Shown here in pieces: positions 41,521 to 59,391 of a stretch of 64,000 bases of DNA. The stretch spans positions 1 through 64,000 of the forward strand of contig NZ_JACSRD010000138.1 in NCBI RefSeq assembly GCF_014879935.1, read 5' to 3'. Made by a program: the position numbers and the translations under genes. The DNA comes from Prosthecobacter sp. (lineage in GTDB: Bacteria > Verrucomicrobiota > Verrucomicrobiia > Verrucomicrobiales > Verrucomicrobiaceae). Below the pieces are notes generated by a model, which had not been told where the DNA came from, did not search any database, and was given only the letters and a program-made list of their open reading frames with translations. Numbering within the stretch: the stretch's first letter is position 1; every line of letters begins with the position of its first letter.

Positions 41521-41682
41521 GGCATTTAGAAATGACAGAGGCGGTTTTAACCTGGACCATTCGCGCAACACAAGCCTTAAAGCCTGGGACTGCAGGACAG
41601 CGCCGCCACGGGCAATTTTTTGCGACGGAATCGCAACAGCACAAGCGAGGCGCACAAAAGTTCAAAAAAAATAACATGCCTG

Positions 41683-41710
41683 TTGAAAGCTGCTTTTGGC
41701 TTTCTATTCT
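41683..41710 (+). promoter_or_regulatory. Candidate sigma-70 promoter of the respiratory operon
   Basis: TTGAAA (41683-41688) and TATTCT (41705-41710) are separated by 16 bases. The region 41660-41740 is AT-rich in contrast to the surroundings. Transcription would start near 41717, just at the CRP/FNR-like palindrome and about 40 bases before actA. Nothing else was seen in the 237-base gap 41521-41757. Confidence 0.45.
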
Positions 41711-41717
41711 GACCTAC

Positions 41718-41737
41718 CTTGTGAAATTTTTCACAAG
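41718..41737. promoter_or_regulatory. CRP/FNR-family operator-like palindrome upstream of actA
   Basis: Arms CTTGTGAAA and TTTCACAAG around two central bases form a 20-base inverted repeat. It contains TGTGA-N6-TCACA exactly, the core consensus of CRP-type regulators. It ends 20 bases before the actA start codon and lies at or just after the predicted transcription start. That position would fit repression better than activation if the promoter call is right. Confidence 0.6.
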
Positions 41738-41757
41738 CTCATCCGACGCTCTTTTCT

Positions 41758-42564
41758 ATGGGTAACTTTTTTCCGCGCTGGTCCAACTGGCTTCCTCTCA
41801 AGCTGGCCATTGCCGTCGTGTTCATTGCCTTCGGCGTGAGTGTCGGCGTCGCCTATTACTTCACACCGAAATACACCCGTGTGGGCTACGAACCGACGCA
41901 GCCGGTGCCGTTCTCGCATCAGATTCATGCCGGGCAGCTCGCACTTGACTGCCGTTACTGCCATAGCTTCGCGGAAAATTCCGGTCATTCGAACGTTCCG
42001 ACGAATCAGACCTGCTTCAACTGCCATGGCCAGGGCAAAGGCGGCATCCGCGCCGCTTCTCCGAAGCTGGAGCTGGTGCAGAAGGCGAACGAGTCCGGCC
42101 AGTCCATCCCGTGGGTCAAAGTCCACAAGGCGCCGGACTATGTTTACTTCAATCACAGCGCCCACTTGAACCGGGGCATCTCGTGCGTGTCCTGCCACGG
42201 CAAGATCAACGAGATGGAAGTGGTGCGGCATGACCAGCCACAGTCGATGGGCTGGTGCCTCGACTGCCATCGCGAGCCTGAGAAAAATCTGCGGCCGCTC
42301 GAGTTTGTGACGAATCTCAATTACAAGGCGGGAGATCTGAAACGCGCTGATTTCTACCAGGGACTGCTCGACAAAAAGGTGGCGGCGAAGGACATCGCGA
42401 ACGTGATTGGTGGCGAAGGTGCCAAGGCGGATGACCTCGGACAGCTCATCGCCCTTGCTGAGAAGACTTACGGCAAGGAAGTGACCCAGACGGAAGTGGG
42501 CACGCAATTGAAGAAGCACTGGCAGATTCAGCCGCCGGAATCCTGCACCGCCTGCCATCGCTAA
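41758..42564 (+). CDS. actA: Alternative complex III subunit ActA, pentaheme cytochrome c
   Basis: 268 residues. One N-terminal membrane anchor (LPLKLAIAVVFIAFGVSVGV) and five CxxCH heme sites: CRYCH, CFNCH, CVSCH, CLDCH and CTACH (at the very C-terminus). This is the ActA pattern of alternative complex III (quinol:electron-acceptor oxidoreductase), which replaces the bc1 complex. The periplasmic hemes relay electrons from ActB towards ActE and soluble carriers. First gene of an operon of about 19 kb, preceded by the CRP/FNR-like palindrome. 23 bases separate it from actB. Confidence 0.95.
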   Translation: MGNFFPRWSNWLPLKLAIAVVFIAFGVSVGVAYYFTPKYTRVGYEPTQPVPFSHQIHAGQLALDCRYCHSFAENSGHSNVPTNQTCFNCHGQGKGGIRAASPKLELVQKANESGQSIPWVKVHKAPDYVYFNHSAHLNRGISCVSCHGKINEMEVVRHDQPQSMGWCLDCHREPEKNLRPLEFVTNLNYKAGDLKRADFYQGLLDKKVAAKDIANVIGGEGAKADDLGQLIALAEKTYGKEVTQTEVGTQLKKHWQIQPPESCTACHR

Positions 42565-42587: not shown

Positions 42588-45500
42588 ATGAAACGCATTT
42601 GGAAGCATCCCGAGGAGCCGCAGAACGCCAAGCGCTACTGGCGCAGTGTCTCCGAGCTGGAGCGTCGTGAGAATTTCCTCAAGGATCTGGGCCAGGAGTT
42701 CCCGGCCGGTGACACTCTGTCCGAAGAAGAGCGTGAGAACGGCCGCCGTGACTTTTTGAAAATCATGGGAGCCAGCGTGGGTCTGATGGGCCTCGCGAGC
42801 TGCCGCCGTCCGCTGACCACCATCCTGCCTTACACCCAGCACATCGAGTGGATGGTGCCGGGCAAGCCTCTCCTCTATGCCACGACAATGCCGCGTGGTG
42901 CCGCTGGTGCGACGCCTCTGGTGGTGACGACGCATGAAGGCCGTCCGACTCACGTGACGGGCAATCCGCTGCACCCGCTTGGTGGGGGCGTTGACAGCTT
43001 CGCGCAGGCCTCGGTGCTGGACCTTTATGATCCTGAGCGCTCGCAGAAGCCGCTTGGCAAGGGCAAGGAACTTTCCTGGGCGAAGGCGAATGAACTGATC
43101 GCTGGAGCTGCGGAAGAGGCGAAAAAGACCGGCGGCGCCAGCCTTGGCATCGTCACAGGCTCGTCGCTCTGCCCCAGCTATCTTCGCATCCTCGGCGAAT
43201 TGAAGACGACTTTTCCGCAGGTGAAGCTGTTCGCCTATGACGCAGTGGGTGGTGAAGGCCGCTCTTCTGCGAACAAGGAGATCTTCGGCGCGGGCGTGAA
43301 GCCCTTCGTGAAGCTCGGCTCCGCCATGCGCATCCTGTCACTGGACTGCGATTTCCTCGGCGTGGACCCCGTCTCGGGCGAACCAATCGCCGCTTTCACC
43401 AAACATCGTGCGAAGGATGCCAAGGCGGCGGACATGAACCGCCTCTACGTGCTCGAAAACCGTTACACGATCACCGGCGGCATGGCGGATCATCGCAAAG
43501 CCCTGCCCGCGAGCCTTATCCCGGCGGCTGCAGCTTTGATCGCCTCCGAGCTGGGAGACGCCTCCGCCAAGGCGCTTGCCGACACGGCTCCTGCAGGTCT
43601 CAAAGAGTGGATCGCGCCTGCCATTCGCGATTTGATCGACAACAAGGGCAAATCGCTCGTTGTCGCTGGTTCCCGCTACGGCGCGGAAGTGCATGCGCTG
43701 GTCGCCTCGATCAACAATGCTCTGGGAGCTTACGGTTCGACCATCGAACTGCTTCAAGACGCGGCCGGACCCGAGTTGGGCACGTTTGCGGACCTGCAAA
43801 GCGCGATTTCCGCCGGTCAGCTCAAGACGCTGGTGTCCCTGACGCCTTCGGACCTGTTCTACGACGCTCCGGATGCCGGAGCGTTTGCCAAGCTCGTCGC
43901 CGACAAAGGCGTGAAGGTGATCCACGCCAGCCTGCTGAAGAACGCCACGGCGCGTGAGGCTGCGCTTCATCTTCCGGCCGCTCATTATCTCGAAGCCTGG
44001 AGCGATGCGCGTGCTGCGGACGGCACCTACTCGATTGTCCAGCCGATGATCGCTCCGCTGTATGATGGAGCGAGCCGTCTGGAAGTGCTGCTGGCCCTCC
44101 TGGGTCGCAAAAAGCTCGGTCCGGCGGAAGTCGCAACCCCTGCGGCCGCTGGTGCTGCGCCGGCAGCTCCCGCCGAAGACGCCGCTTATGTGGCCGTGCG
44201 CGACACCTTTGCCGCAGTGGCGGGCGGGCTCGATGAATCGAAGTGGAATTTCACTTTGCGCGACGGGTTCCTCAAGGGTTCCGCCTTCGCCAAGGCCACG
44301 GCTACCCCGAACGTCGCTGCGGTGGCTGGAATCGTGGCCAAGGCCAAACCTGCCGCTGCTCCGAGTGATGATGCGGTCGAAGTGGTGCTCGTGCCGAGTT
44401 CCAGCGTGTTCGATGGTCGCTACGTGAACAACGCCTGGCTCCAGGAAGCGCCCGATCCGGTGACGAAGCTTACTTGGGAAAATGCCGCCTGGGTTGGCTC
44501 CATCACGTTCCGCCGCCTGGGCCTCAAGGAAGGCCAGCTCGTCAAAATCACCGTCGGTGACACCAGCGTCGAGATCCCTGCGATCGAAGCACCGGGCCAT
44601 GCGACGAACTCGATCACTCTCACGCTTGGTTACGGCCAGAAAGACATCGGCGTCGTCGGCAGCGACCGCGGTGTGGATGCCTATGTGCTGCGCAAACAGC
44701 CTGACGTGTTCGTTTTGAACGGTGCGAAGGTCGAAGCGCTCAGCACAGTCGCGGAACTTGCGATCACGCAGGACCAGAACACGATGGAAGGCCGCGCGGT
44801 GTATCGCGAGGGCACGCTCGACACCTTCAACAAGGACGTCCACTTCGCCCAGAAGACGGGGATGGACTCCCACATCCCGGAGAACATCTCCTTCTACAAA
44901 GGCCAGGTCGGAGAGAAGAAGGACTACAACGATCCTCACGACGAAGGCTTCGACTACAAGACCCAGCACCAGTGGGGCATGGTCATCGATCTCAGCAAGT
45001 GCATCGGCTGCACCGCTTGCGTCGTCGCCTGCCAGAGCGAGAACAACATCCCTGTCGTCGGCAAGGATCAGGTGCGCAAAGGCCGTCTCATGCAGTGGAT
45101 CCGCATGGATCGCTACTTCGCCGTCCCGAAGTGGGGCAAGAACGAAGTCGAACAGGAAAGCACCTGGGCCGAGGACAATCCGACGCCCGAGCAGCTTGAA
45201 AACGCCGAGATGGTCACCCAGCCGATGGCCTGCCAGCAGTGCGAGGCCGCCCCGTGCGAAACGGTCTGCCCGGTGAACGCCACCGTTCACACGCCCGATG
45301 GCTTGAACGCCATGGCCTACAACCGCTGCATCGGCACGCGCTACTGCGCGAACAACTGCCCTTACACCGCCCGTCGCTTCAACTGGTTCGACTACAACAA
45401 GCGCAACCCGCTGATCGAGACCAAGGTCGCTGGCATCACGATGAACAATCTTTACGCCGGCCCGCTCGGCGAGAAGAGGGAGGACGAAAGCCTCCGCCTG

Positions 45501-45869
45501 CAGCGCAATCCGAACGTCACCGTCCGCATGCGTGGTGTCATCGAGAAGTGCACCTACTGCGTGCAGCGTCTCGAAAGCGCCAAGATCCTGCAGAAACAGG
45601 TGCAGCGTGACTCGAAGAACTTCCGCGTGCCCACTGACAGCGTCAAAACCGCCTGCCAGCAGTCCTGTCCGGCTGATGCCATCATCTTCGGCGACCTGGC
45701 TGACAAGAAGTCCGCCGTGGTCAAAGCCAAGGCCTCCCCGCGTGACTACCAGGTGCTCAAATACATCGGCACCCGCCCGCGCACCAGCTACCTCGCCCGC
45801 CTGCGCAATCCGAACCCGAAAATGCCCGGCGCGGAAAACATCGCCGTGTGGAGCAAAAACCAATTCTAA
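42588..45869 (+). CDS. actB: Alternative complex III subunit ActB, molybdopterin-like plus iron-sulfur protein
   Basis: 1093 residues. The twin-arginine-like RRDFLKIMGASVGLMGLASC, near residue 53, marks export. The first about 780 residues follow the molybdopterin-oxidoreductase fold that is cofactor-free in known ActB (PLLYATTMPRGAAGATPLVV). From residue 805 the ferredoxin-like half carries CIGCTACVVAC, CQQCEAAPCETVCP (from 882), CIGTRYCANNCP and CTYC...CQQSCP, matching three [4Fe-4S] and one [3Fe-4S] clusters in the family. Electrons from quinol oxidised at ActC pass through these clusters to ActA and ActE. It lies between actA and actC, with 9 bases to the latter. Confidence 0.95.
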   Translation: MKRIWKHPEEPQNAKRYWRSVSELERRENFLKDLGQEFPAGDTLSEEERENGRRDFLKIMGASVGLMGLASCRRPLTTILPYTQHIEWMVPGKPLLYATTMPRGAAGATPLVVTTHEGRPTHVTGNPLHPLGGGVDSFAQASVLDLYDPERSQKPLGKGKELSWAKANELIAGAAEEAKKTGGASLGIVTGSSLCPSYLRILGELKTTFPQVKLFAYDAVGGEGRSSANKEIFGAGVKPFVKLGSAMRILSLDCDFLGVDPVSGEPIAAFTKHRAKDAKAADMNRLYVLENRYTITGGMADHRKALPASLIPAAAALIASELGDASAKALADTAPAGLKEWIAPAIRDLIDNKGKSLVVAGSRYGAEVHALVASINNALGAYGSTIELLQDAAGPELGTFADLQSAISAGQLKTLVSLTPSDLFYDAPDAGAFAKLVADKGVKVIHASLLKNATAREAALHLPAAHYLEAWSDARAADGTYSIVQPMIAPLYDGASRLEVLLALLGRKKLGPAEVATPAAAGAAPAAPAEDAAYVAVRDTFAAVAGGLDESKWNFTLRDGFLKGSAFAKATATPNVAAVAGIVAKAKPAAAPSDDAVEVVLVPSSSVFDGRYVNNAWLQEAPDPVTKLTWENAAWVGSITFRRLGLKEGQLVKITVGDTSVEIPAIEAPGHATNSITLTLGYGQKDIGVVGSDRGVDAYVLRKQPDVFVLNGAKVEALSTVAELAITQDQNTMEGRAVYREGTLDTFNKDVHFAQKTGMDSHIPENISFYKGQVGEKKDYNDPHDEGFDYKTQHQWGMVIDLSKCIGCTACVVACQSENNIPVVGKDQVRKGRLMQWIRMDRYFAVPKWGKNEVEQESTWAEDNPTPEQLENAEMVTQPMACQQCEAAPCETVCPVNATVHTPDGLNAMAYNRCIGTRYCANNCPYTARRFNWFDYNKRNPLIETKVAGITMNNLYAGPLGEKREDESLRLQRNPNVTVRMRGVIEKCTYCVQRLESAKILQKQVQRDSKNFRVPTDSVKTACQQSCPADAIIFGDLADKKSAVVKAKASPRDYQVLKYIGTRPRTSYLARLRNPNPKMPGAENIAVWSKNQF

Positions 45870-45878
45870 TCCGGACAC

Positions 45879-47342
45879 ATGGACGCTTCCGCCACAGCCT
45901 CTAACACACCGCGCATCCTCGAACGCGAGCCGCTGGTCCTGAACAACCGCTCGTACTCCTGGATCACGAACCGCATCTGCGGCATCGTCGAGAACAAGCA
46001 GCCCACGCTTTGGTGGATCCTGATGGTCCCTTCCGTGCTGCTCACCGGCCTGATGGTGTTCTGCTTCGCCTACCTCATCTCCACCGGCGTCGGTGTCTGG
46101 GGTCAGAAGCAGCCGGTCGCATGGGCTTGGGACATCACGAACTTCGTCTTCTGGATCGGTATCGGCCACGCCGGCACGCTGATCTCCGCCATTCTCTTCC
46201 TCACCCGTCAGAAATGGCGCACGTCGGTGAACCGCGCCGCGGAAGCCATGACGATCTTCGCCGTGATGTGCGCCGGTCTCTTCCCGGCCTTCCACGTCGG
46301 TCGTGTGTGGATGGTGTGGTTCCTGGCCCCGATTCCGAACGCCAATGCCATCTGGCAGAACTTCAAATCGCCGCTGCTGTGGGACGTGTTCGCGGTTTCG
46401 ACCTACTTCAGCGTCTCTGCCGTGTTCTGGTTCCTCGGTCTCGTGCCCGATCTCGCCACGCTGCGTGATCGCTGCCGCCCGGGCCTGAAAAAGTTCCTCT
46501 ACGGCCTGTTCGCCCTCGGCTGGCGCGGTGGAAACCGTCATTGGAGCCACTACGAGACGGCCTACATGCTGCTGGCCGCCCTCTCGACGCCACTGGTGCT
46601 CTCCGTGCACTCCGTCGTGTCCTTCGACTTCGCCACCTCCGTCGTTCCTGGCTGGCACACCACGATCTTCCCGCCCTACTTCGTCGCAGGTGCCATTTTT
46701 GGTGGGTTCGCGATGGTGCTGACCCTCATGCTCCCGGTGCGCCGCATCTACGGCCTGGATGACCTCATCACGCCCAAGCACGTGGACAACATGGCGAAGA
46801 TCATCCTGCTCACGGGCACGATCGTCGGTTACGCCTACTGCATGGAGTTGTTCGTGGCCTACTACTCTGGCAACCCGTATGAAGCCGCCGCCTTCACCCT
46901 GCGCGGTCTCACCGGTCCGTCCACCTGGGCCTACTACTGGATGTTCGGCTGCAACGTGTTCGCCCCGCAGTTGTTCTGGTCCCGCTGGTGCCGTCACAAC
47001 GTCTGGATCGTGATGATCGTCTGCATGTTCGTGAACGCCGGCATGTGGTTCGAGCGCTACGTCATCATCGCCACCACGCTGGAGCGCCACATGATTCCAG
47101 GCTCCTGGCGCGTGTATGAGGCCACCTGGGTCGATAAGTACACCTTCCTGGGCACCTTCGGCTTCTTCATGATGTTGTTCCTGTTGTTCCTGCGCTTCCT
47201 GCCAGTCATCGCCATCGGTGAGGTGAAGGGCGTCCTGCCGCAGTCGAACCCGCACCACGACGACCACGCCGAGCCCGGCATCCAGGAGGAGGACCTCATG
47301 GACTATGCCGACCGTCACGTCCCGAAACCCGCTGCCGCCTGA
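45879..47342 (+). CDS. actC: Alternative complex III subunit ActC (NrfD/PsrC-type quinol site)
   Basis: 487-residue polytopic membrane protein with about ten helices. Family motifs are [80 protein letters not shown] and [10 protein letters not shown]-like [15 protein letters not shown]. The acidic/histidine residues in the first four-helix bundle correspond to the quinol site and proposed proton path of ActC. It acts with ActB. The gene is followed 42 bases later by actD with a GTG start. Confidence 0.95.
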
Positions 47343-47384
47343 CCGGATTTCAAATCACTCACTTTCAATTTCAAATTCATCATC

Positions 47385-47984
47385 GTGAGCACCACCCTCA
47401 AACGAGTCCACGGATACCTCGCTGAATTCGACAGCGTGAAGGATCTGTATCACGCCGCCGAACAGGTGCGTGACGCAGGTTACAGCCGCTGGGACGTGCA
47501 TTCCCCGTTCCCGATCCACGGCATGGACGATGCCATGGGCAATCCGCGCTCCCGGCTGCCCTACCTCGTGTTCTGCGGCGGCATCACCGGCACCACCGTC
47601 GCTTTCGTGCTCGAAACGATCACACAAACGAACTTCTGGAGCCACATCGGCCTCGGTTTCCTGCAAAAGATCGTCGAAACCTATCCGACCGTCGTGCAGG
47701 CCAAACCGACCGACATCTGGACGCTGCCGGCGTTTTTCCCGGTGATGTTCGAACTGACGATTCTCTTCAGCGCGTTCACCACCCTGTTCGGTTTGCTCGC
47801 CTTGATCGGACTCCCGCGTTGGAACCACCCTCTGTTCGCGTCCAGGAACTTTCCGAAGTTCTCCGATGACGGCTTCTTCGTGTGCATCGAGGCCCGCGAC
47901 CCCAAATTCTCCCAGGAAGGCACCAAGTCCCTGCTCGAAAAAGCTGGCGGCAAGAACATCGAACTCGTGGAGGACGAAATCTAA
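47385..47984 (+). CDS. actD: Alternative complex III subunit ActD (DUF3341)
   Basis: 199 residues, GTG start at 47385 (first residues MSTTLKRVHGYLAEFDSVKD). The DUF3341 pattern is AAEQVRDAGYSRWDVHSPFP, IHGMDDAMG, two helices (LVFCGGITGTTVAFVLETIT and FPVMFELTILFSAFTTLFGL) and a soluble tail with the metal-transport-like fold (DGFFVCIEARDPKFSQEG). ActD is a scaffold subunit without cofactors. 12 bases to actE. Confidence 0.94.
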   Translation: MSTTLKRVHGYLAEFDSVKDLYHAAEQVRDAGYSRWDVHSPFPIHGMDDAMGNPRSRLPYLVFCGGITGTTVAFVLETITQTNFWSHIGLGFLQKIVETYPTVVQAKPTDIWTLPAFFPVMFELTILFSAFTTLFGLLALIGLPRWNHPLFASRNFPKFSDDGFFVCIEARDPKFSQEGTKSLLEKAGGKNIELVEDEI

Positions 47985-47996
47985 GCCGCGCGAACC

Positions 47997-48674
47997 ATGA
48001 AATACTTCTTCCTCAGTTACATCTTCGTCGGCGCGATCATCGTGAGCGCGTTCGGCTTCCGTGGCAGCAAGTCCGAACTGCCGCCGATCGAAGTCTTCCC
48101 CGACATGGACCACCAGGCCAAAGTCAAGTATCAGGCCTCGAGCGATTTCTTCGCCGATGGCCGTGGGGCGCGTCTTCCAGTGAAGAACACCGTCCCGATG
48201 GGATTCGAGATTCCCGCCAAAGCAGCCGCGAATGGCGCGAAACCCGCTCGTTTTGGATTCACCAACGGCCTGGACTACTACAACACCGGCAAGATGGGTG
48301 ATTTCTATGGTGACGGCCTCCCAGTCGAGATCACCAGTGATGCGTCGGTCTTTAACGAAGCCTTCCTGAAGCGCGGTGAGCAACGCTACAACATCCATTG
48401 TGCGATCTGTCACGGCACTTCCGGCAACGGCAAGGGAGTTACCTCCAAGTATGGCATCCTGACCGCCTTCAACTTCCAGCAGCCGGGCAACACCGACCCG
48501 GCCAACGCAGCCGCCTTCCGCGCGGATGGTGCCATCTTTGATGTCATCACCAACGGCAAGGGCCTCATGGGCAGCTACGGCGGCAACATCACCGTGCGCG
48601 ATCGTTGGGCCATCGTGGCCTACATCCGCGCCCTGCAACTCGCCGCCAAAGAGTCCGGCGCCACCCTCCAGTAA
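47997..48674 (+). CDS. actE: Alternative complex III subunit ActE, monoheme cytochrome c
   Basis: 225 residues. N-terminal hydrophobic anchor (YFFLSYIFVGAIIVSAFGFR), no clear lipobox Cys. The single heme site CAICH, near residue 134, lies in the family context RYNIHCAICHGTSGNGKG. A Met ligand candidate follows in GKGLMGSYGG before VRDRWAIVAYIRALQ. It takes electrons from ActA for the downstream acceptor. It lies between actD and actF. Confidence 0.94.
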   Translation: MKYFFLSYIFVGAIIVSAFGFRGSKSELPPIEVFPDMDHQAKVKYQASSDFFADGRGARLPVKNTVPMGFEIPAKAAANGAKPARFGFTNGLDYYNTGKMGDFYGDGLPVEITSDASVFNEAFLKRGEQRYNIHCAICHGTSGNGKGVTSKYGILTAFNFQQPGNTDPANAAAFRADGAIFDVITNGKGLMGSYGGNITVRDRWAIVAYIRALQLAAKESGATLQ

Positions 48675-48698
48675 CGGCACGATCACGCGAATCACGGC

Positions 48699-50012
48699 AT
48701 GAGTCACCACGTCACCTTCAACGATCTGCCCCAGGGCGGAGAAAAATTCGAACCGGCCAAGGGCGGCAAGCTCATCGGCGCGCTTGGGCTGTTTGGCCTG
48801 CTGGGCCTCGTCGCTTCCGCCTGGTTCTTCTTCAACAACACGGACACTTTCGCCTACTCCTGGCTGTTCGCGGTCTTCTTCACCTTCACCTTCGTGGTGG
48901 GTGGCTGCTTCTGGATCCTACTTCACAGCGTGTCGAATTCCGGCTGGGGCGTCTCCGTGCGCCGCATCTGGGAAAACTTGGCGAACATGATCCTGGCGCT
49001 GGCCATCTTCGCCTCGCCGCTGCTCCTTCCAGCCGTGCAGAAGCCGCTTTACGAGTGGATGAATCATCACCGTGAGGCTGCGGAACACGCGCACCACGAC
49101 CATGTCTCCGTCAAAGAGGCCTTGCATCACATGGCGGAGGCGAATCCACACCTTCACGTGCTGGTCACCAAGTTCGGCTACATGAACCTGAACCCAGTGG
49201 GATTCTCCTGGTACACCCGCTTCGTTGCCTACTTCCTCATCCTCTGGGGCATCGCCCGCTACCTGCGTGGCAAATCACTGCAGCAGGATCAGGATGGTGA
49301 CATCAAGCACACCGTCCGTGCGCGTCAGTTCTCCAGCATCGTGCTGCTGTTTTACGCACTCACGGTGACCTTCGCCGCCTACGACTGGCTCGTGGGTCTG
49401 GACTACACCTGGTTCTCCACCATGTGGGGCGTGTACATCTTCGCTGGCTGTGCGTGGGCCTCCATGGCGCTCTCCATCCTTGTCATCACCTGGCTGCGCA
49501 GCCTTGGCTACCTGCAGAAGGTCGTCACCGACGAGCACTACCACTTGATGGGCAAGCTGCTCTTCGCCTTCACGGTGTTCTGGGCTTACATCGCCTTCTC
49601 CCAGTATTTCCTGATCTGGTATGCCAACGTGACGGAAGAAACCCGCTTCTACCTGACCCGTAACACGGAAGGCTGGCGTGGAGTTTCGATCTTCATCGTC
49701 GTCGGTCACTTCGTCGGCCCGTTCCTCCTGCTGCTCTCGCAGCCGCGGAAGAAGAATCCGGTCGTGGTCAGCATGGTCTGCATCTGGATCCTGTTCATGC
49801 ATCTTGTGGACATCTACTGGATTGTCATTCCAGAGCGCGGCCCGTCGCTCGGCCTGGGAGTTTTCGCTCCAGGAGCCTGGGTGCAGGACATCGCAGCCCT
49901 GTGTGCCGTGTTTGGCACGATGGGCTTCCTCTACCTGCGCGGCCTGGCCAAATACAGCCTCTATCCGTGGCGTGATCCGCGCCTCATCGAGTCCGTGAAC
50001 GTCGTCAACTGA
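48699..50012 (+). CDS. actF: Alternative complex III subunit ActF (NrfD-like)
   Basis: 437 residues, about ten helices. Landmarks are LLGLVASAWFFFNNTDTFAY, SWLFAVFFTFTFVVGGCFW, SNSGWGVSVRRIWENLA, YDWLVGLDYTWFSTMWGVYI, HYHLMGKLLFAFTVFWAYIA and FSQYFLIWYANVTEETRFYL. A His-rich soluble loop (HHREAAEHAHHDHVS) follows the third helix. It is the second NrfD-like subunit of the complex and is thought to take part in proton translocation. Last act gene; a 133-residue membrane protein follows after 19 bases. Confidence 0.95.
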   Translation: MSHHVTFNDLPQGGEKFEPAKGGKLIGALGLFGLLGLVASAWFFFNNTDTFAYSWLFAVFFTFTFVVGGCFWILLHSVSNSGWGVSVRRIWENLANMILALAIFASPLLLPAVQKPLYEWMNHHREAAEHAHHDHVSVKEALHHMAEANPHLHVLVTKFGYMNLNPVGFSWYTRFVAYFLILWGIARYLRGKSLQQDQDGDIKHTVRARQFSSIVLLFYALTVTFAAYDWLVGLDYTWFSTMWGVYIFAGCAWASMALSILVITWLRSLGYLQKVVTDEHYHLMGKLLFAFTVFWAYIAFSQYFLIWYANVTEETRFYLTRNTEGWRGVSIFIVVGHFVGPFLLLLSQPRKKNPVVVSMVCIWILFMHLVDIYWIVIPERGPSLGLGVFAPGAWVQDIAALCAVFGTMGFLYLRGLAKYSLYPWRDPRLIESVNVVN

Positions 50013-50031: not shown

Positions 50032-50433
50032 ATGTCGCAGCCCGAACCATCCAAAAAAGCCGGCGCCACCTTCCTGTGGGTGCTCGGAGCCTTCGCAGGC
50101 TTCGCCGTGCTGTTCACTCTCATCCAGTCCGGTGTCGATTCGAAGCTGGGCCAGGATCCGCGTGCGTCCGAACGTGCCGCCAACACGGCCGAGATCGCCA
50201 AGACGCAGAACGAGAATCTGGCGAAGATCGGCATGACCGACGCCGCCAAGCAGAAGGCTGTGTATCAAAAGGCGCTTTCCTCTCTCGGCGTGAGAAAACC
50301 GGCCGCCAGCACCCAGGTCGTGCCAGGATCGCCCACCCAGCTCAAACAAGCTGCGGCCGCCGCGACCGCCCCGGCTCCGGCTGCACCCGCAGCTCCTGCA
50401 CCCGCCCCTGCCGCACCCGCTCCGCCCAAGTAA
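50032..50433 (+). CDS. Small single-helix membrane protein with Ala/Pro tail
   Basis: 133 residues. A helix at about 11-31 (ATFLWVLGAFAGFAVLFTLI) is followed by a charged helical region (DPRASERAANTAEIAKTQNE, then NLAKIGMTDAAKQKAVYQKA) and a tail of about 50 residues made almost only of Ala and Pro (APAPAAPAAPAPAPAAPAPP). No family is recognised. The Ala/Pro tail resembles tails on the CcoO-like, CcoP-like and CtaC proteins nearby. Position between actF and ccoN suggests a linker or assembly role. Confidence 0.7.
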   Translation: MSQPEPSKKAGATFLWVLGAFAGFAVLFTLIQSGVDSKLGQDPRASERAANTAEIAKTQNENLAKIGMTDAAKQKAVYQKALSSLGVRKPAASTQVVPGSPTQLKQAAAAATAPAPAAPAAPAPAPAAPAPPK

Positions 50434-50436
50434 GTC

Positions 50437-51918
50437 ATGCAGACCAATCCCTCCACCCCTGACACGGAACTTCAGGCCGACAACCTTCGCCGTGCGGCGA
50501 TCGACAAGTCGGTGAAAGGCCCCGTCCTGTTCCTGTTCACGAACGGAGCCTTCTGGCTCATGCTCTCCACGATCCTCGGCGTTCTCTCCGCGATCAAGCT
50601 GGTGGAGCCGGGCTTCCTCGACGGTTGCCCCTACATCACGTACGGCCGCCTCCAGCCCGCTCACATCAATGCGCTGGTCTATGGCTGGGGCCTTCAGGCC
50701 GCCCTCGGCGTGATGCTTTGGATCATGGCCCGCCGCTCCGGCCAGGAACTCAAAACCGGCAAGAGCCTGATGATCACCGCCGGCGTGTTCTGGAACATCA
50801 CCATCACCATTGGCATCCTGGCCATCCTGATGGGCAAGAGCACCTCCATCGAGTGGCTGGAAATGCCGAAGTTTGTCTGGCCGGTGCTGCTGGTCTGCTT
50901 CCTGTGCTTCGCCTGGCCGATCGCCCGCATGTTTGGCCGTGCGTTCCGTCCGGAAGGCTTCATGGTCAGCACCTGGTACATCCTGGGAGCCTGCTTCTGG
51001 TTCACTTGGATCTTCATCACGGCAAACGTCACGCTTCACTGCCTGCCAAACCTCGGAGCGCTCGGCGCTGGCATTGATGCCTGGTACATCCACGGCGTGA
51101 TCCTGCTGTTCTTCGTCCCCGTCGGTGTCGGCTCGGCCTATTACTTCATTCCGAAGATCACGGGCCAGCCCATCGCTTCCGCCCAGCTTGCTTCGGCCGG
51201 ATTCTGGACGCTGGCTGTCCTTGGCGGCTGGACGGGCATGCAGAAATACATGGGCGGCCCCCTTCCCGCCTGGATGTCGGCCGTCGGTGCCTGTGCTGGT
51301 GTGCTTCTGCTCATTCCGGTGGGTCTTGTCGGCCTCAACCACCACCTGACCACCATCGGCAAGCACAACGCTGTCGCTGCCAGCCCGACGCTGCGTTTCG
51401 TCTTCTTTGGAGCCCTGTTTTACCCGATCTCCGGCCTCGTTCTCGCGCTTAACTCCGCCTTCTGGACCGGTGCCAGCCTCCAGTTCACGCAGTCCTGGTA
51501 TTCCTTCCAGATGGTGAGCGTGTACGGTTTCTTCAGCATGAGCGTCTTCGGCGCGATCTACTACATCGTGCCGCGCCTCTCCGGCTGTGAATGGCTCAGT
51601 GTGCGCCTGATCCGCAACCACTTCTGGTTCTCCGTCTATGGCGTGGGCACCATTGTCATCATGAGCCTGGTCGCCGGTTTGCAGCAGGGCGCCGATCTCA
51701 ATGATCCGGGCCATTGGGACCAGTCTTTCATGAACCACGTCATCAACTCACGCCCCTACGTCGTCTCGCGTGCGGTGGCCTGGGCCTTGATCAGCTTCTC
51801 GAACTTCATGTTCCTTTTCCACCTGCTGCTCATGGTTGCCGGTCTCGGCCGCCGCAGCACCGCTCCGACGCTGCTGCACCGCGAGCATGACGAACACGCT
51901 CTTCCCGCCCACGCATGA
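50437..51918 (+). CDS. CcoN-like heme-copper oxidase subunit I lacking most metal ligands
   Basis: 493 residues, aligned by eye with cbb3 subunit CcoN over the whole length. The first low-spin heme His is kept (GRLQPAHINALVYGW, H76), as is the first CuB-type His (DAWYIHG, H219). In helix VII the CuB pair of WAGPHHLHYTALPDW reads WTGMQKYMGGPLPAW (Q269-K270), and the cross-link Tyr is also lost. In helix X the HVH heme ligands read FQM (F357, M359) before FGAIYYIVPRLSG. A His pair at 302-303 lies in another loop. Oxygen reduction is therefore not expected; at most one heme, perhaps His/Met, could bind. The gene begins 3 bases after the small membrane protein and overlaps ccoO by 4 bases. Confidence 0.82.
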   Translation: MQTNPSTPDTELQADNLRRAAIDKSVKGPVLFLFTNGAFWLMLSTILGVLSAIKLVEPGFLDGCPYITYGRLQPAHINALVYGWGLQAALGVMLWIMARRSGQELKTGKSLMITAGVFWNITITIGILAILMGKSTSIEWLEMPKFVWPVLLVCFLCFAWPIARMFGRAFRPEGFMVSTWYILGACFWFTWIFITANVTLHCLPNLGALGAGIDAWYIHGVILLFFVPVGVGSAYYFIPKITGQPIASAQLASAGFWTLAVLGGWTGMQKYMGGPLPAWMSAVGACAGVLLLIPVGLVGLNHHLTTIGKHNAVAASPTLRFVFFGALFYPISGLVLALNSAFWTGASLQFTQSWYSFQMVSVYGFFSMSVFGAIYYIVPRLSGCEWLSVRLIRNHFWFSVYGVGTIVIMSLVAGLQQGADLNDPGHWDQSFMNHVINSRPYVVSRAVAWALISFSNFMFLFHLLLMVAGLGRRSTAPTLLHREHDEHALPAHA

Positions 51919-52601
51919 TGAACTTCCGCACTTTCATTCTTGGCCTTGCCGCCTCTTTCGGCCTGCCCTGGCTGTGCCTCATCGTCATTCCGACGGTGCA
52001 GTACCAGCATCTGGCCCCCATCGCCTATGACAAGGAGAAGGACGGCGTGGACTTCACTTCGTATCCGCCCGCCAACATCAACGGCCAGGGACAGCTCGTT
52101 TACATCCGCGAAGGCTGCAACCAGTGCCACACGCAGATGATCCGCCCGGTCCAGCTCGGACTTGATGGCTGGTACAAAGGCTGGGGAGAAGATCAGGAAG
52201 CCCGTCCGTCGGCTCCTGTGCGCCCGAATGTCCTGCGCGACTACCTGGGTGAGAAATACGCCCTGCTCGGAGTCCAGCGTGTCGGTCCGGACCTCGCCAA
52301 CTACGGCTGGCGTGCCCCGGACGCCAATGCGCTCCATCAGCACCTCTATGCTCCCCGTTCTGTGCATGAGTGGAGCAACATGCCGGCCTACCCCGGCCTC
52401 TACAAAGTGCAGAAGATCCAGGGCCAGGTTTCCAATCGGGCACTGAAGCTGCCGAAGAAGTTCGCCCCGCCTGCCGGATACGAAGTCGTTCCGACCCCTG
52501 AAGCCGACCGTCTCGTCGAATACCTTCTCTCCTTGAAGAAAGCCTACCCCGTCCCCGGCCAGTCCGCCGTCGCCGCTGCTCCCGCCCCGGCCAGCAAGTA
52601 A
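51915..52601 (+). CDS. CcoO-like monoheme cytochrome c (cbb3 subunit II type)
   Basis: 228 residues starting MNFRTFILGLAASFGLPWLC, ATGA overlap with the CcoN-like gene. The N-terminal anchor is followed by GQLVYIREGCNQCHTQMIRP, where CNQCH binds heme c and QMIRP is the CcoO signature. RVGPDLANYGWR and SNMPAYPGLY supply the distal Met region. The C-terminus has an Ala/Pro tail. All heme-binding features are intact, in contrast to its CcoN-like partner, so it can still carry electrons. Probably membrane-bound with its soluble domain in the periplasm. Confidence 0.9.
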   Translation: MMNFRTFILGLAASFGLPWLCLIVIPTVQYQHLAPIAYDKEKDGVDFTSYPPANINGQGQLVYIREGCNQCHTQMIRPVQLGLDGWYKGWGEDQEARPSAPVRPNVLRDYLGEKYALLGVQRVGPDLANYGWRAPDANALHQHLYAPRSVHEWSNMPAYPGLYKVQKIQGQVSNRALKLPKKFAPPAGYEVVPTPEADRLVEYLLSLKKAYPVPGQSAVAAAPAPASK

Positions 52602-52633
52602 CTTTTGTCCCCTGCCCTTAGCTCTCCGCACCA

Positions 52634-53362
52634 ATGAGCGCCCCCGCAAATCCCGACAGCACCGATCTTGACCGCCTGCACGCCGCTGTGAAGCGTGAGA
52701 AGGAAGATCTTGCGCCCGAAAGCCAGCCTGCGCCCCTTTGGGCCATCTTCCTGCTCATGCTCGTCGCCATCGTGGCTGGCGGCCAGATCGGTCAGATGAC
52801 CGGCGGCTGGAGCTTCGATGTCAGCAACCCGTTCTCCGTCGCAGGCACTGGCGGTGACCCTCGTCCAGGTGGTGGTGCGGCCGGTGACGCGCTCGATCCA
52901 TTCGCTCTGGCGATGAAAAAAGGCGCGAGCGGCTACTCCGTCTGCGGCGGCTGCCATCAGGGAAATGGCGCTGGAATTCCCGGCCAGTTCCCGCCGCTCG
53001 CAGGCTCTGAGTGGGTGAATGGCGGCACCGAGCGACTCATCCGCGTCGTGCAGCATGGCCTGACCGGCCCCATCACTGTCAAAGGCGCGGGCTTCAACAC
53101 CCCCGGCGGCATGATGCCCTTCGGCGCGGCCATGTCCTCCCAGGATCTGGCCAACGTGCTGACCTTCGTCCGCAATTCCTGGGGCAACGAGGGCACCATG
53201 GTCACCAAGGAGATGGTGCAGAAAGTGCGTGACGAGGAAAAACGCGCCACGCAGTGGACTGCGGCTGACCTTGAGCCTTTCGCTGAGAAAAATGTGCCTG
53301 GCGACATTCCCGCCGGACCTGGAGCCACCGCAGCCGCAGCGCCTGCTCCCGCAGCCAAGTAA
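52634..53362 (+). CDS. Monoheme cytochrome c, CcoP-like
   Basis: 242 residues. A cytosolic N-terminus (DRLHAAVKREKEDLAPESQP) precedes one helix (WAIFLLMLVAIVAGGQIGQM). A single cytochrome c domain follows, with CGGCH in SGYSVCGGCHQGNGAGIPGQ and a Met ligand in GGMMPFGAAMSS; a tail rich in Ala/Pro ends the protein. True CcoP has two hemes; this protein has one, so it is at best a reduced CcoP. It lies between ccoO and the cupredoxin gene (12 bases). Confidence 0.85.
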   Translation: MSAPANPDSTDLDRLHAAVKREKEDLAPESQPAPLWAIFLLMLVAIVAGGQIGQMTGGWSFDVSNPFSVAGTGGDPRPGGGAAGDALDPFALAMKKGASGYSVCGGCHQGNGAGIPGQFPPLAGSEWVNGGTERLIRVVQHGLTGPITVKGAGFNTPGGMMPFGAAMSSQDLANVLTFVRNSWGNEGTMVTKEMVQKVRDEEKRATQWTAADLEPFAEKNVPGDIPAGPGATAAAAPAPAAK

Positions 53363-53374
53363 TTCTATCATTCG

Positions 53375-54184
53375 ATGATCCGTGTGAAGCATGCCGTCTC
53401 CCGCCAGGCACCTTGGGCTGCCTTCGGAGCCGTCATGCTGATCGCCAACGTGAGTTGCGGCAAAGCGCCTGAGGCCGTTGCAGAGGCAAATCTCGCCCCA
53501 GCCATCGAAATCGCCGAGAAGCCCAGCATCAGCGGCAAGGTGACGCTCAAAGGAGCCGATTCGACCGCCCTGCGCAAAGTGGTCGATGTAAGTGGGAATC
53601 CGTTTTGCAGCGGCCACGGTGAGATCATTGACCCTGCGTGGAAAGTCGGCCCCGATGGTGCCCTGGCCGACGCCGTGATCACGGTGCGTGGCAGTCAGCG
53701 GGCCAGCAACGCCATCGGTTCCCCGCTGATCGATCAGACGAATTGCGAGTTCGTGCCGCATGCCGTGGCGATCCAGCCTGGCCAGGCCGTTCGCTTCCAC
53801 AACAGCGACCTGACTTTCCACAACATCCGCGTCGCCCGTCACCAATCCGGGACTTCGGGGAAGGGGGAGAACATCGACAACTTCGGCCAGCCCTCGCGCG
53901 GCGACGAAAACGTCAAAACTTTCAACACCCCCGGCCTCTACCGGCTGGAATGTGACGTACATCGTTGGATGAGCGCCTGGGTTGTCGTGCACGAAGGCGT
54001 TCACGCCGCCGTTTCCGCCGCCGATGGCCGATTCGGCATCAACCGGGCCCTCGATGATGGTGAGTATGTCATCGAAGCTTGGCATCCGCAGTTTCCGCAA
54101 CGGTTGTCACAGACCGTCACCGTCCGCGATGGCAAGGCCACCGCAGACTTCACCTTCGACTTCGCGCAAGCCATCCAACTCTGA
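53375..54184 (+). CDS. Cupredoxin-fold lipoprotein
   Basis: 269 residues. Lipoprotein signal (GAVMLIANVSC). After a Gly-Lys-Val strand (ISGKVTLKGADS) comes a blue-copper-like domain: VPHAVAIQPGQAVRFHNSDL, TFHNIRVARHQSG and LYRLECDVHRWMSAW. H (TFHN), C and H (ECDVH) and M (RWM) form a plausible copper site. The C-terminal strand-rich part (DDGEYVIEAWHPQFPQRLSQ) resembles carboxypeptidase-regulatory-like/cupredoxin-associated domains. Sits between the cytochromes and the aa3 oxidase genes, so it may carry electrons from complex III to the oxidase. Whether copper binds is not shown. Confidence 0.75.
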   Translation: MIRVKHAVSRQAPWAAFGAVMLIANVSCGKAPEAVAEANLAPAIEIAEKPSISGKVTLKGADSTALRKVVDVSGNPFCSGHGEIIDPAWKVGPDGALADAVITVRGSQRASNAIGSPLIDQTNCEFVPHAVAIQPGQAVRFHNSDLTFHNIRVARHQSGTSGKGENIDNFGQPSRGDENVKTFNTPGLYRLECDVHRWMSAWVVVHEGVHAAVSAADGRFGINRALDDGEYVIEAWHPQFPQRLSQTVTVRDGKATADFTFDFAQAIQL

Positions 54185-54213
54185 AACCCAACCTGGATTC
54201 CTGATCTTTCTCC

Positions 54214-56169
54214 ATGAGCGCCGCCGCCACCACCCATGACCACGCCCACGATCACGCGCATGACCATGCGCACGATCACCACGAGCCGGGCTTCCTGCGC
54301 AAATATGTCTGGTCCACCGATCACAAGGTCATCGGCGTGCAGTATGCGGTCAGCGGGCTGCTGTTCCTGCTGTTCGGCTTCTTCCTGATGCTGCTGATGC
54401 GCTGGAGCATCGCCTATCCGAACCTGCCGGTTCCGGCTGTCGATGCGATCCGCTCGATCCCCATCATCAAGGACCTGTTTGAGAGCATGTTCGGCCGCTG
54501 GTTGAATCCCGACGGCTCCCTCAATGGCGAGCTCTACAACATGCTCGGTGCCATGCACGGCACGATCATGGTGTTCTTCGGCATTGTGCCGCTTGGTTTC
54601 GCCGGTTTCGTGAATTTCGTCATGCCGCTGCAGATCGGCACGATCGACATGGCCTTCCCGAAGCTGAACATGATGAGCTTCTGGCTGTTCTTCGTCAGCG
54701 GCGTGCTGATGTTCTGGAGCTTCTTCGTCGGAACCGGCCCGGTGCAGACCGGCTGGACGATGTATTCGCCGCTGGCCTCGACCACCGGGATCGGTGTCTC
54801 CAATGTCTGGCAGCACGGTCACACCTGGTGGTTGATGGCGATGGTGTTCAACATCTCCGCCTCGCTCCTCGGCTCCGTCAACGTCATCGCCACGGTCATC
54901 AACCTCCGCGCCAAAGGCATGAGCTGGCTGCGCATGCCCGCCTTCTCCTGGGCCATGTTCGTCACCGCCTTCCTGCTGCTGCTGGCGTTCCCGCCGCTCG
55001 AAGTGGCCGCTCTCCTGCAGCTCTCCGACCGTGTCTTCGGCTCCTCGTTCTACCTGCCGACCGGCCTGATGGAAGGTGGCAAGCACCTGGACATCTCCGG
55101 TGGCGGCTCTCCGCTGCTCTACCAGCACCTGTTCTGGTTCCTGGCGCATCCTGAGGTGTATGTCTTGATCCTTCCCGCCTTCGCCATCCTGACCGACGTC
55201 ATTCCCTGCAACGCCCGCCGTCCGTTGTGGGGCTACAAGCCGATGGTGTACTCGATGCTCACGCTGGGCTTTCTCAGCTTCCTTGTGTGGGCTCACCACA
55301 TGTACCTCACCGGCATGGGCACCATGATGTCCACCTACTTCCAGATCACCACCGTGCTCATCTCGGTGCCTTCCGTGATCTTGCTGACCTGCCTCATGAT
55401 CTCCCTTTGGGGCGGCTCCATCCGCTTCAACACGCAGATGCTCTTCGCCTCCGCCTTCCTGCCGATGTTCGGCATCGGCGGTCTGACGGGTCTGCCGCTG
55501 GCTTTCGCCTTCATCGACCTCGCCCTGCACGACACCTACTACGTGATCGGTCACTTCCACTACGTCGTGGCTCCGGGAACGATCTTTGCCCTGTTCGCGG
55601 GTGTGTATCACTGGTATCCGAAGATCACCGGCCGTTTCATGAGCGACAAGCTCGGGAAGCTCCACTTCTGGCCTTCGCTCATCGGCATGAACCTGCTCTT
55701 CGCGCCGATGTTCATCCAAGGTATGGCCGGCTTCCACCGCCGCTGGTATGACGGCGGCAAATACTTCGAAAACACGGCCTCCATGAGCCATTGGACGACC
55801 AGTCTGACCCACAAGATTGGCGCTTTCTTTGGTCTCGAAATCCCGGACAACATGCTGTCGCTCAACATCGTGATGAGCTTCGGGGCCTTCATCCTCGCCT
55901 TGGGTCAGATCCCGTTCATCATCAACTTCTGGTTCAGCATCAAAGGCGGCAAGAAGATCGAAAGCGACAATCCATGGAACGCCACCACGCTGGAGTGGGC
56001 CACCCCCACACCGCCGCCGCACGGCAACTTCCTCTTCGACGTCAATGCACACCGCGGACCATACGAGTACAGCGTCCCGGGTCACCCCGCCGACTTCTAC
56101 CCGCAGTGGGAATCCGAGCCTGGCAAGCCGGTGCCACCCGCCAAGTCCGAAGCGCACGCGCATCATTGA
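54214..56169 (+). CDS. ctaD: Cytochrome c oxidase subunit I (aa3 type)
   Basis: 651 residues. All ligands are present: low-spin heme a His in NMLGAMHGTIMVFFG; CuB His and cross-linked Tyr in FLAHPEVYVLILP; HH in LVWAHHMYLTGMG; and the heme a3/heme a His pair in YYVIGHFHYVVAPGT. The N-terminus is a metal-binding-like string, HDHAHDHAHDHAHDHHE. The C-terminus is extended past the 12 core helices (to about residue 651) with another His-rich end. This is the catalytic subunit that reduces O2 and pumps protons. Lies downstream of the cupredoxin gene (29 bases). Confidence 0.96.
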   Translation: MSAAATTHDHAHDHAHDHAHDHHEPGFLRKYVWSTDHKVIGVQYAVSGLLFLLFGFFLMLLMRWSIAYPNLPVPAVDAIRSIPIIKDLFESMFGRWLNPDGSLNGELYNMLGAMHGTIMVFFGIVPLGFAGFVNFVMPLQIGTIDMAFPKLNMMSFWLFFVSGVLMFWSFFVGTGPVQTGWTMYSPLASTTGIGVSNVWQHGHTWWLMAMVFNISASLLGSVNVIATVINLRAKGMSWLRMPAFSWAMFVTAFLLLLAFPPLEVAALLQLSDRVFGSSFYLPTGLMEGGKHLDISGGGSPLLYQHLFWFLAHPEVYVLILPAFAILTDVIPCNARRPLWGYKPMVYSMLTLGFLSFLVWAHHMYLTGMGTMMSTYFQITTVLISVPSVILLTCLMISLWGGSIRFNTQMLFASAFLPMFGIGGLTGLPLAFAFIDLALHDTYYVIGHFHYVVAPGTIFALFAGVYHWYPKITGRFMSDKLGKLHFWPSLIGMNLLFAPMFIQGMAGFHRRWYDGGKYFENTASMSHWTTSLTHKIGAFFGLEIPDNMLSLNIVMSFGAFILALGQIPFIINFWFSIKGGKKIESDNPWNATTLEWATPTPPPHGNFLFDVNAHRGPYEYSVPGHPADFYPQWESEPGKPVPPAKSEAHAHH

Positions 56170-56208
56170 TCCCACCGCGAACAGCGAACCGACCAACGCG
56201 AACTTTCC

Positions 56209-57573
56209 ATGGAAATCCCATACACCGTCCACGCCCGGCCTGACACCGGCCTCTACAACGCCAAGATCGGCATCTGGCTCTTCCTCGCATCGGAAGTCAT
56301 GCTCTTCGGCGGCTTGTTCTCCGCTTACATCTTCCTCCGCGTCGGCGCGGACTATCCCTGGCCGGTCTGGGATCTCGATGTCAAGCTTGGCTTGATCAAC
56401 ACCGCCGTGCTCATCGGCTCGTCCGTCACGGTCGTCATGGCCTGGGCATCGCTGAAGCTGCGTCGTTTCGGCCAATACAAGCTCTACATGGCCATCACGG
56501 TTCTTTGTGCCGGTGTGTTCATGTTCAACAAGAGCCTGGAATACAGCGCCAAGTTCAAACACTACGCCGTGAAGCTCACGGACGGCACGATCCTCACCGG
56601 TCACCTGCCGGAGGACGATCACCACAAGACGATCCCGTATCAGGTGAAGTTTGGCGACATCACGGCCCTGTCGTTGACCATTCCGGTCAAAAACAGCGCG
56701 GTCACCGCCGATCCTGCCAGCTATGTCGTGCCTCACCTCGAAGGTGAGCCGAAGTTCAAGACTGCGGATGGCAAAGAGATCGTCCTCAACGCCGCTTCCT
56801 TCGCGGAACTGCGCGCCCAGGCCCTCGCCAAGGCTGCCGCTGACAAAAAGGACAGCGCCAGCGTGCAGCTCACCGCTGTTTCGCCGCTCAAAGCCGCCGC
56901 CAAGCCCGCAGACATCTTCGGTTACACCGAAACCACCATCACCTTCCGCGATGGCACCGTCGCCACCGGCAAATTGATCGACGACAAGATGACGTTGCTG
57001 GTGGACGGCATCGACACCCGCGCAGTCGCCCAGCCGGAGAAGTCCCTGGCCTTCGACCAGCGCTATCTTGCCGCCTGGCAGCCGACGTTCGTGGCCAACC
57101 GTGACCACCACATCGCCGAGTTCGAGAAGCATTTCCCGACCCGCGACAAATCGAAGTCTGCCACGCTCCAGAAGGAGTCGCTCTTCCTGAAGCTGCACTC
57201 CTCCACACCGCCAGCCGCTGGTGAAGCTCATGGCAACAAGCATGGTGCGGAGGCCCACGCTCCGGCCGAAGGCGGCCATGGTCACGGCCATGATTATCCG
57301 ACCGTTGTCCTGGAGAAGAATGACGTCACCTTCTTCTCGAATTTCACGCCGAAGCTGAACACCTACTACGCGATTTACTTCACACTCACGGGCCTTCACG
57401 GCCTTCACGTCATCGCCGGTGCGTTGGTGCTGGGTTACTTCCTGGTCTTCAACGGCCGCATGATGCGTGAGGATCCTGAGCATCTCGCCAATCGCGTCGA
57501 AGTCGGCGGCTTGTTCTGGCACTTCGTCGATCTCGTCTGGATCTTCCTCTTCCCGCTTCTGTATCTCCTCTAA
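56209..57573 (+). CDS. ctaE: Cytochrome c oxidase subunit III with about 250-residue soluble insertion
   Basis: 454 residues, against about 200-270 usual. The N-terminal helices (IWLFLASEVMLFGGLFSAYI, LINTAVLIGSSVTVVMAWAS, MAITVLCAGVFMFNKSLEY) and C-terminal helices (YYAIYFTLTGLHGLHVIAGA, GLFWHFVDLVWIFLFPLLYL) are those of subunit III, including the conserved Glu in KSLEY. Residues about 114-362 between helices III and IV are an extra soluble domain. It has two similar stretches (VKLTDGTILTGHLPEDD and ITFRDGTVATGKLIDDK), an Ala/Lys helix and a His-rich end (HGNKHGAEAHAPAEGGHGHG, HDYP). The location suggests a periplasmic or cytoplasmic appendage on the oxidase. No family for the insertion was recognised. 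Confidence 0.88.
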   Translation: MEIPYTVHARPDTGLYNAKIGIWLFLASEVMLFGGLFSAYIFLRVGADYPWPVWDLDVKLGLINTAVLIGSSVTVVMAWASLKLRRFGQYKLYMAITVLCAGVFMFNKSLEYSAKFKHYAVKLTDGTILTGHLPEDDHHKTIPYQVKFGDITALSLTIPVKNSAVTADPASYVVPHLEGEPKFKTADGKEIVLNAASFAELRAQALAKAAADKKDSASVQLTAVSPLKAAAKPADIFGYTETTITFRDGTVATGKLIDDKMTLLVDGIDTRAVAQPEKSLAFDQRYLAAWQPTFVANRDHHIAEFEKHFPTRDKSKSATLQKESLFLKLHSSTPPAAGEAHGNKHGAEAHAPAEGGHGHGHDYPTVVLEKNDVTFFSNFTPKLNTYYAIYFTLTGLHGLHVIAGALVLGYFLVFNGRMMREDPEHLANRVEVGGLFWHFVDLVWIFLFPLLYLL

Positions 57574-57594
57574 AACTGTTTTCCCTCCACCGTC

Positions 57595-57921
57595 ATGGCC
57601 GACAACGTCGAAGAAATCCAAAAATCCATCAAGAAGTACCTGTGGATCGGTTTGATCCTCATGGTCTTCACCGCCATCACCGTGTGGCTCTCCACCGTGG
57701 AGCTCCCCACCCACGGCCTGAACATCCTGGTCGGCATGATTGTGGCCACGTTCAAAGCAGGGCTCGTCGCGCTCATCTTCATGCATCTCAATCACGAGCG
57801 TCCCATCATCTACAAGGTGCTGGCCTTCACCGCCGTGTTTGCCATCGTGCTTTTCGTTCTTTTCTACTTCAGCAAGCAGGACCCGCTTGTGTTTGAAGGC
57901 TTCTACAGCATTCCCGAGTAA
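57595..57921 (+). CDS. ctaF: Cytochrome c oxidase subunit IV (prokaryotic type, CtaF)
   Basis: 108 residues with three helices (YLWIGLILMVFTAITVWLST, LNILVGMIVATFKAGLVALI, KVLAFTAVFAIVLFVLFYFS) and the COX4-pro motif VATFKAGLVALIFMHLNHER. Small structural subunit of the oxidase, following ctaE by 21 bases. Confidence 0.92.
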   Translation: MADNVEEIQKSIKKYLWIGLILMVFTAITVWLSTVELPTHGLNILVGMIVATFKAGLVALIFMHLNHERPIIYKVLAFTAVFAIVLFVLFYFSKQDPLVFEGFYSIPE

Positions 57922-57941
57922 CCGTCAGCTCGTCGCGTAGC

Positions 57942-58148
57942 ATGTCGCTCAAGCACTTCCACATCGTTTTCCTCGCCTTCGCAGTCCTCTGCGATGCGGG
58001 TATCTGGCTGTGGATTCACCTCGTGCCTGAGGACGCCGCCCGCGCCGGAGCTCTCCCATTGAAGCCCTACGTCGGACTCATCTGTGTGGCCCTGCTCGCC
58101 TACGGCGGCTGGTACATCTTCAAAAAAATGCGCAACATCATCGTCTGA
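57942..58148 (+). CDS. Small two-helix membrane protein of the oxidase cluster
   Basis: 68 residues. Two hydrophobic helices (FHIVFLAFAVLCDAGIWLWI and YVGLICVALLAYGGWYIF) are joined by a short loop with LVPEDAAR. It ends KKMRNIIV. No named family recognised. Sits between ctaF and another small membrane protein, and probably an accessory or assembly subunit. Its tight spacing (20 bases after ctaF, 1 before the next start) and membrane character support a real gene. Confidence 0.75.
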   Translation: MSLKHFHIVFLAFAVLCDAGIWLWIHLVPEDAARAGALPLKPYVGLICVALLAYGGWYIFKKMRNIIV

Positions 58149-58149
58149 C

Positions 58150-58350
58150 ATGATCTCCGCGCCGTCCTCCATTCTCGCCTGCGCCACCTGTCTTGCCGAC
58201 AAAGGCAGTCTCATCGGTCAGGCCCAGGGCTTTGCCATTCTGTTCATGCTCGGCGTGCTCGCCTTCATGTTCGCCTGCGCGGGCGGCATCATCTTTGCCA
58301 TGGTTCGTCAGCAGCGCAAAGCCGCCCGCCAGGAGCTGGCGGCCGCCTGA
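58150..58350 (+). CDS. Small one-helix protein with CxxC motif
   Basis: 66 residues, MISAPSSILACATCLADKGS, then helix FAILFMLGVLAFMFACAGGI and a basic tail (RQQRKAARQELAAA). The CATC motif stands in the extracytoplasmic N-terminus and could bind metal or be redox-active, for example in copper delivery to CuA; this is inference. It begins 1 base after the previous gene and precedes ctaC by 49 bases. Confidence 0.75.
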   Translation: MISAPSSILACATCLADKGSLIGQAQGFAILFMLGVLAFMFACAGGIIFAMVRQQRKAARQELAAA

Positions 58351-58399
58351 AGTCCTCCCTCACTCTTTCCTCAGTCCCGAATTTCCCCCATCTCAACTC

Positions 58400-59254: not shown

Positions 59255-59391
59255 GCGGATTTGTGCTTCGCTGCTGACGGGATGCGTGGTGGGAAAGACA
59301 ATCTGGGGCGTCTTCACTTCCGAACCGACGCCGTTTGTTTCTGACCCGGGGACAGTGGCGATCTGCATTCCATCCGTTCGCCGCCATCACC

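Follow-up and report, generated by a model that had tools for sequence, protein, structure and literature searches.

The locus raises the question of which regulator reads the palindrome directly before actA, and how much of the respiratory chain that regulator controls. We analyzed the window (the whole stretch of 64,000 nucleotides) together with the source genome and the genomes of its relatives. An earlier note, made from the sequence of the window, had described a perfect TGTGA-N6-TCACA within a longer palindrome just before actA and had read it as a CRP/FNR-type site. The palindrome was confirmed. TGTGA-N6-TCACA (TGTGAAATTTTTCACA) occupies positions 41720-41735, and a 20-bp near-palindrome around it (CTTGTGAAATTTTTCACAAG, 41718-41737, one central mismatch) ends 21 nt 5' of the actA ATG at 41758. 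Nested in this near-palindrome is an 18-mer, TTGTGAAATTTTTCACAA, that matches the Rex operator TTGTGAA-N4-TTCACAA exactly, and the CRP-like core is only the inner part of that operator. The features we assigned are collected in Table 1.

Table 1. Features of the actA promoter, the genes that follow it, and separated nuo and atp genes in relatives.
Feature	Position or locus	Strand	Remarks
-35 element TTGAAA	41683..41688	+	In relatives, TTGCAA or similar; location conserved across the genus
-10 element TATTCT	41705..41710	+	16-nt spacer; TATTCT/TATCCT in nearly all of the 28 genus upstream regions that reach it
Probable Rex operator TTGTGAAATTTTTCACAA	41719..41736	.	Within the palindrome 41718-41737
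actA, multihaem cytochrome c subunit of alternative complex III	41758..42564	+	Pfam Cytochrome_C7, 50 bits
actB-actF block	42588..50012	+	Pfam Fer4_7 58, NrfD 82, ActD 190, Cytochrome_CBB3 50 bits
133-aa ORF	50032-50433		Between the act genes and the oxidase genes
Two haem-copper oxidases and assembly genes	50437..60474	+	Pfam matches
Split-off nuoE, nuoM, atpG, atpD, atpA, each with its own operator-promoter module	L264, L282, L287, L289, L294, L327, L330, L331, L335, L337		Order-level relatives

As the earlier note had proposed, the palindrome heads an operon for an alternative complex III and terminal oxidases. The nearest NCBIfam model to the ActA protein is QrcA (90 bits, below the cut-off). 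In the block that follows, actB codes for an iron-sulfur protein, actC for an NrfD protein, actD for a PF11821 protein and actE for a cytochrome c; actF, which has no Pfam match, is a probable assignment by position. The oxidase segment continues in the order COX1, FixO, cytochrome c, Copper-bind protein, COX1, COX3, COX4, COX2 and CtaA. Within this gene run, one alternative complex III is followed by two different haem-copper oxidases (COX1+FixO and COX1/COX3/COX4/COX2; 50437-59254). The gene order suggests that the run from actA to CtaA forms a single transcript. The co-directional run stops at 60474. It is followed by an oppositely oriented gene (60475-63717) that converges on the operon's end and codes for a protein kinase with a long tail of tetratricopeptide repeats.

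We examined where the palindrome lies relative to the promoter. TTGAAA-16-TATTCT (41683-41710) is the sole sigma-70-like promoter in 41500-41800, where shuffled sequences give 0.1, and its position predicts a transcription start for actA at about 41717. In the genus, actA is preceded by TTGCAA-N16/17-TATTCT, with the operator 8-9 nt further on. At that distance the operator would cover about +3 to +20 of the predicted start. More distant relatives show a different arrangement: the operator's own TTGTGA takes the place of the -35 element, and in 10 of 13 genomes the best -10-like hexamer comes 16-17 nt later. Judged by predicted starts, the operator at actA thus overlaps either the core promoter or the early transcribed region, and both arrangements are predicted blocking positions, as expected of a repressor. 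The proposal that the palindrome sits just downstream of a -10 element, placed as a repressor site, is therefore supported.

The actA site has counterparts elsewhere in the genome. The operator 18-mer has a single copy in the window, where 0.02 would be expected at up to three mismatches. TGTGA-N6-TCACA alone is weak evidence, with about 3.5 copies expected by chance and 14 observed per genome; eight of the 14 have the longer Rex form, and the remaining six have unrelated spacers. A genome-wide search with TTGTGAAANNTTTCACAA returned six exact matches, two with one mismatch and none with two (exact matches expected by chance, 0.0002; reversed control, 0). In all, the source genome (7.7 Mb) has exactly eight Rex-type sites against about 0.005 expected, again with none in the reversed control. 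Every one of them precedes an oxidative-phosphorylation unit: actA, nuoB, nuoD, nuoF (the site on contig C7, on the minus strand), nuoG, nuoH, nuoI or atpB. nuoB is followed by nuoC, nuoD by nuoE, nuoI by nuoJ-M and atpB by further atp genes, these partners being named by eye from their sequences. Complex I is thereby divided into six separate units, each with its own operator; nuoA was not located. The search for the same palindrome before other respiratory genes, which the earlier note had suggested, thus added seven sites, all before nuo or atp units. Its view that one site could govern all terminal electron flow was too small in scope, since the actA site is one of eight that also take in complex I and ATP synthase. 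The eight target units span the pathway from NADH and quinol oxidation through oxygen reduction to ATP synthesis. With the same site before complex I and ATP synthase genes that are dispersed through the genome, it is probable that a single redox sensor sets the level of the entire oxygen-respiration chain in these bacteria.

The source genome encodes one Rex protein, on another contig (G000:C217:40217). It matches nine NCBIfam Rex models (best, NF003995 at 241 bits) and carries both Pfam domains, PF06971 and PF02629. It aligns with solved Rex structures almost from end to end (E=3e-44 for one of them). Its DNA- and NAD-binding residues are conserved: the DNA contacts of Thermotoga Rex (Arg48, Lys49, Arg60 and Gly61; PMC8836258) are kept here as Arg50, Lys51, Arg62 and Gly63, and GVGNLG is also kept. 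No canonical Rex site was found before rex. Upstream of this gene (L023:1463-1485) we observed a palindrome, GTGAAWWTTCAC(A), that is 2 bp shorter than the canonical site. It also occurs in relatives (L061-L090), and in most genus members it follows a TTGAC-like -35 element just before the rex start codon; it is possibly an autoregulatory variant or a half-site. In other classes of the phylum exact sites are rare, and they lie right beside rex (G105:C11:308351, G211:C22:135142 and G292:C312:27449), which suggests autoregulation there.

Conservation of the sites, which the earlier note had set as a check, extends across the genus, more distant genomes and a further family. Nearly all of the complete genomes among 34 others of the genus have 8-9 sites. 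In 29 of the 30 genus loci examined, the distance from the actA site to the start codon is 36-40 nt, and the thirtieth (L105) also has the site. It recurs in 13 more distant genomes and, 51-61 nt before the start codon, in three Rex-containing genomes of a further family. Over these families the actA operator is conserved to the base while its flanks diverge. One relative has a tandem pair of Rex operators 7 bp apart (G288:C11:117122-117164). Among sampled Verrucomicrobiales genomes of at least 97% completeness, all 15 with Rex have 5-11 sites and none of the 23 without Rex has any. The Rex-less genomes comprise 22 from one small-genome genus, probably Akkermansia, plus G262; the joint absence counts as about two independent losses. 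The two sampled congeners of G262 have Rex and 5-6 sites. G262 itself has lost the actA site, and its nuoD site departs from the consensus by one base, as though the operators were in decay. Four incomplete genomes (G009, G025, G034 and G038; 81-90%) have sites with no Rex detected, which may reflect assembly gaps.

We consider it very likely that the actA palindrome is the operator of a Rex protein that represses the respiratory chain at low NADH and releases it when NADH accumulates. The sites, the genes they precede, the Rex protein, the conservation and the joint absence of sites and Rex were observed directly; from these we infer Rex binding, its response to NADH and the sign of control. 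Rex would act as an NADH/NAD+-sensing winged-helix repressor, encoded once and away from this operon. At low NADH, Rex-NAD+ bound at about +3 to +20 would prevent initiation at the actA promoter. Accumulation of NADH, through excess substrate or restricted oxygen, would release Rex and allow the alternative complex III/oxidase operon to be made. Through the seven further copies, this sensor would also govern the six complex I units and ATP synthase, so that the NADH-oxidizing, ATP-making chain would be adjusted as one set.

The suggestion that a CRP/FNR-family regulator binds the actA site draws on the TGTGA-N6-TCACA core, which is the CRP consensus. Of that earlier reading, the redox-type site and the repressor position stand; the CRP/FNR identity does not, because the bases follow the Rex operator and Rex is present. 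In the real sites the outer TT/AA and most of the inner A/T are as conserved as TGTGA/TCACA, so conservation is not limited to TGTGA/TCACA, as for CRP, or to TTGAT/ATCAA, as for FNR. The six TGTGA-N6-TCACA sites that lack the Rex extension are near chance level. A search of the 97.3%-complete genome with one model of the CRP/FNR DNA-binding domain, HTH_Crp_2 (PF13545), gave no match above the cut-off; the only match, below threshold, was to a GntR-family regulator, and the same search was positive in 14 of 14 control genomes. We regard CRP/FNR binding as highly improbable. An inverted repeat in an intergenic region might also be a chance or structural sequence with no regulator, but this is less credible still. 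The genome-wide and window match expectations rule out a chance origin, and a terminator or hairpin was ruled out because no terminator-like site is present in 41500-41800. Base-exact conservation over families, the placement before eight genes of one pathway and the absence of the sites where Rex is absent also speak against it.

A further alternative concerns the sign of control at the nuo and atp genes, where the promoter geometry differs. There the operator lies upstream of a conserved TTGCCG-N16-GATAAT promoter, centered at about -50 and spanning about -59 to -42 by prediction, a position less typical of a simple blocking repressor. In at least 115 stretches from the genome collection (those listed are all from Verrucomicrobiota), which were selected for TTGCCG, operator-N7-TTGCCG is followed by a conserved -10 element at a fixed place. 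Among 67 nuo/atp sites not selected in this way, 49 have a gap of 7 bp between operator and -35 element and 17 a gap of 5-6 bp; of 12 nuoB sites, 11 have 5 bp. The score of the -10 element has a sharp maximum at spacer 16. This near-fixed spacing would suit a Rex with two signs: a repressor at actA, where it would bind within the promoter or directly after it, and an activator at nuo and atp, where it would contact RNA polymerase from about -50. If that were so in Verrucomicrobiales, the NADH level would shift the ratio of NADH-oxidizing to oxygen-reducing complexes. However, four Akkermansia-type genomes with neither Rex nor the nuoD operator keep an equivalent core promoter, TTGCCC-N16-CATAAT, so the nuoD promoter does not need Rex. 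In Listeria, Rex-activated genes lack sites, the literature we searched contained no case of direct activation by Rex, and opposite signs inside one pathway make little physiological sense. Streptomyces avermitilis Rex gives footprints of 23-29 nt (PMC5355995); a footprint of that size at nuo and atp would reach the edge of the -35 element. Repression at all sites is most likely and is the reading we prefer; activation at nuo and atp is a minority view that we hold to be unlikely.

The operator-promoter module also appears before nuoE, nuoJ, nuoL, nuoM, atpA, atpG and atpD where the gene clusters break elsewhere, both in the order and in the genus. In one genome it precedes a type-2 NADH-dehydrogenase-like flavoprotein. 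Control therefore appears to follow the enzyme set, not the operon: split nuo and atp fragments carry the same module, and sites are missing where Rex is missing. Beyond the assigned targets, relatives have a site near a homocysteine methyltransferase (L272) and at L249, L270, L285, L291, L297, L302, L342 and L344. The proposed circuit is testable, would cover oxidative phosphorylation in Verrucomicrobiales and would link alternative complex III with NADH sensing. It also offers a natural setting in which to ask how regulons persist when operons come apart.

The core TGTGA-N6-TCACA is shared with enterobacterial CRP sites. Here it is extended to TTGTGAAA..TTTCACAA and no CRP-family protein was detected, so this is a resemblance only. 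The operator TTGTGAA-N4-TTCACAA has been described for Rex in Streptomyces (PMC5355995) and Staphylococcus (PMC2883068). Staphylococcus aureus Rex is likewise a redox-sensing repressor with an operator TTGTGAAW4TTCACAA and sites in or near promoters, but its mapped targets include the fermentation genes ldh1, pflB and adhE (PMC2883068), and no such target was found in the source genome. No earlier report linking Rex to alternative complex III, Verrucomicrobia or Prosthecobacter was found in a search that did not include Ravcheev 2012, the main comparative Rex paper. The closest parallel is S. avermitilis, whose Rex uses this motif to repress nuo, atp and cyd (PMC5355995). Both systems use the operator motif TTGTGAANNNNTTCACAA, target complex I and ATP synthase, and have an oxidase-gene site just downstream of the start, as at cydA1 (footprint -3 to +25; PMC5355995). 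The S. avermitilis regulon comprises atpIBEFHAGDC, cydA1B1CD, nuoA1-N1, rex-hem, ndh2 and hppA (PMC5355995), whereas all targets found here belong to oxidative phosphorylation and rex has no canonical site. The oxidase target is alternative complex III with haem-copper oxidases instead of cytochrome bd, and complex I falls into six units that each have a separate site. The nuo/atp sites, predicted at about -59 to -42, also lie further upstream than the S. avermitilis footprints over the -35 element (-50 to -22 and -42 to -16). Rex control of nuo and atp is thus already known from Streptomyces; what is new in the predicted regulon is the lineage, the alternative complex III target, the restriction to one pathway and the fixed upstream placement at nuo and atp.
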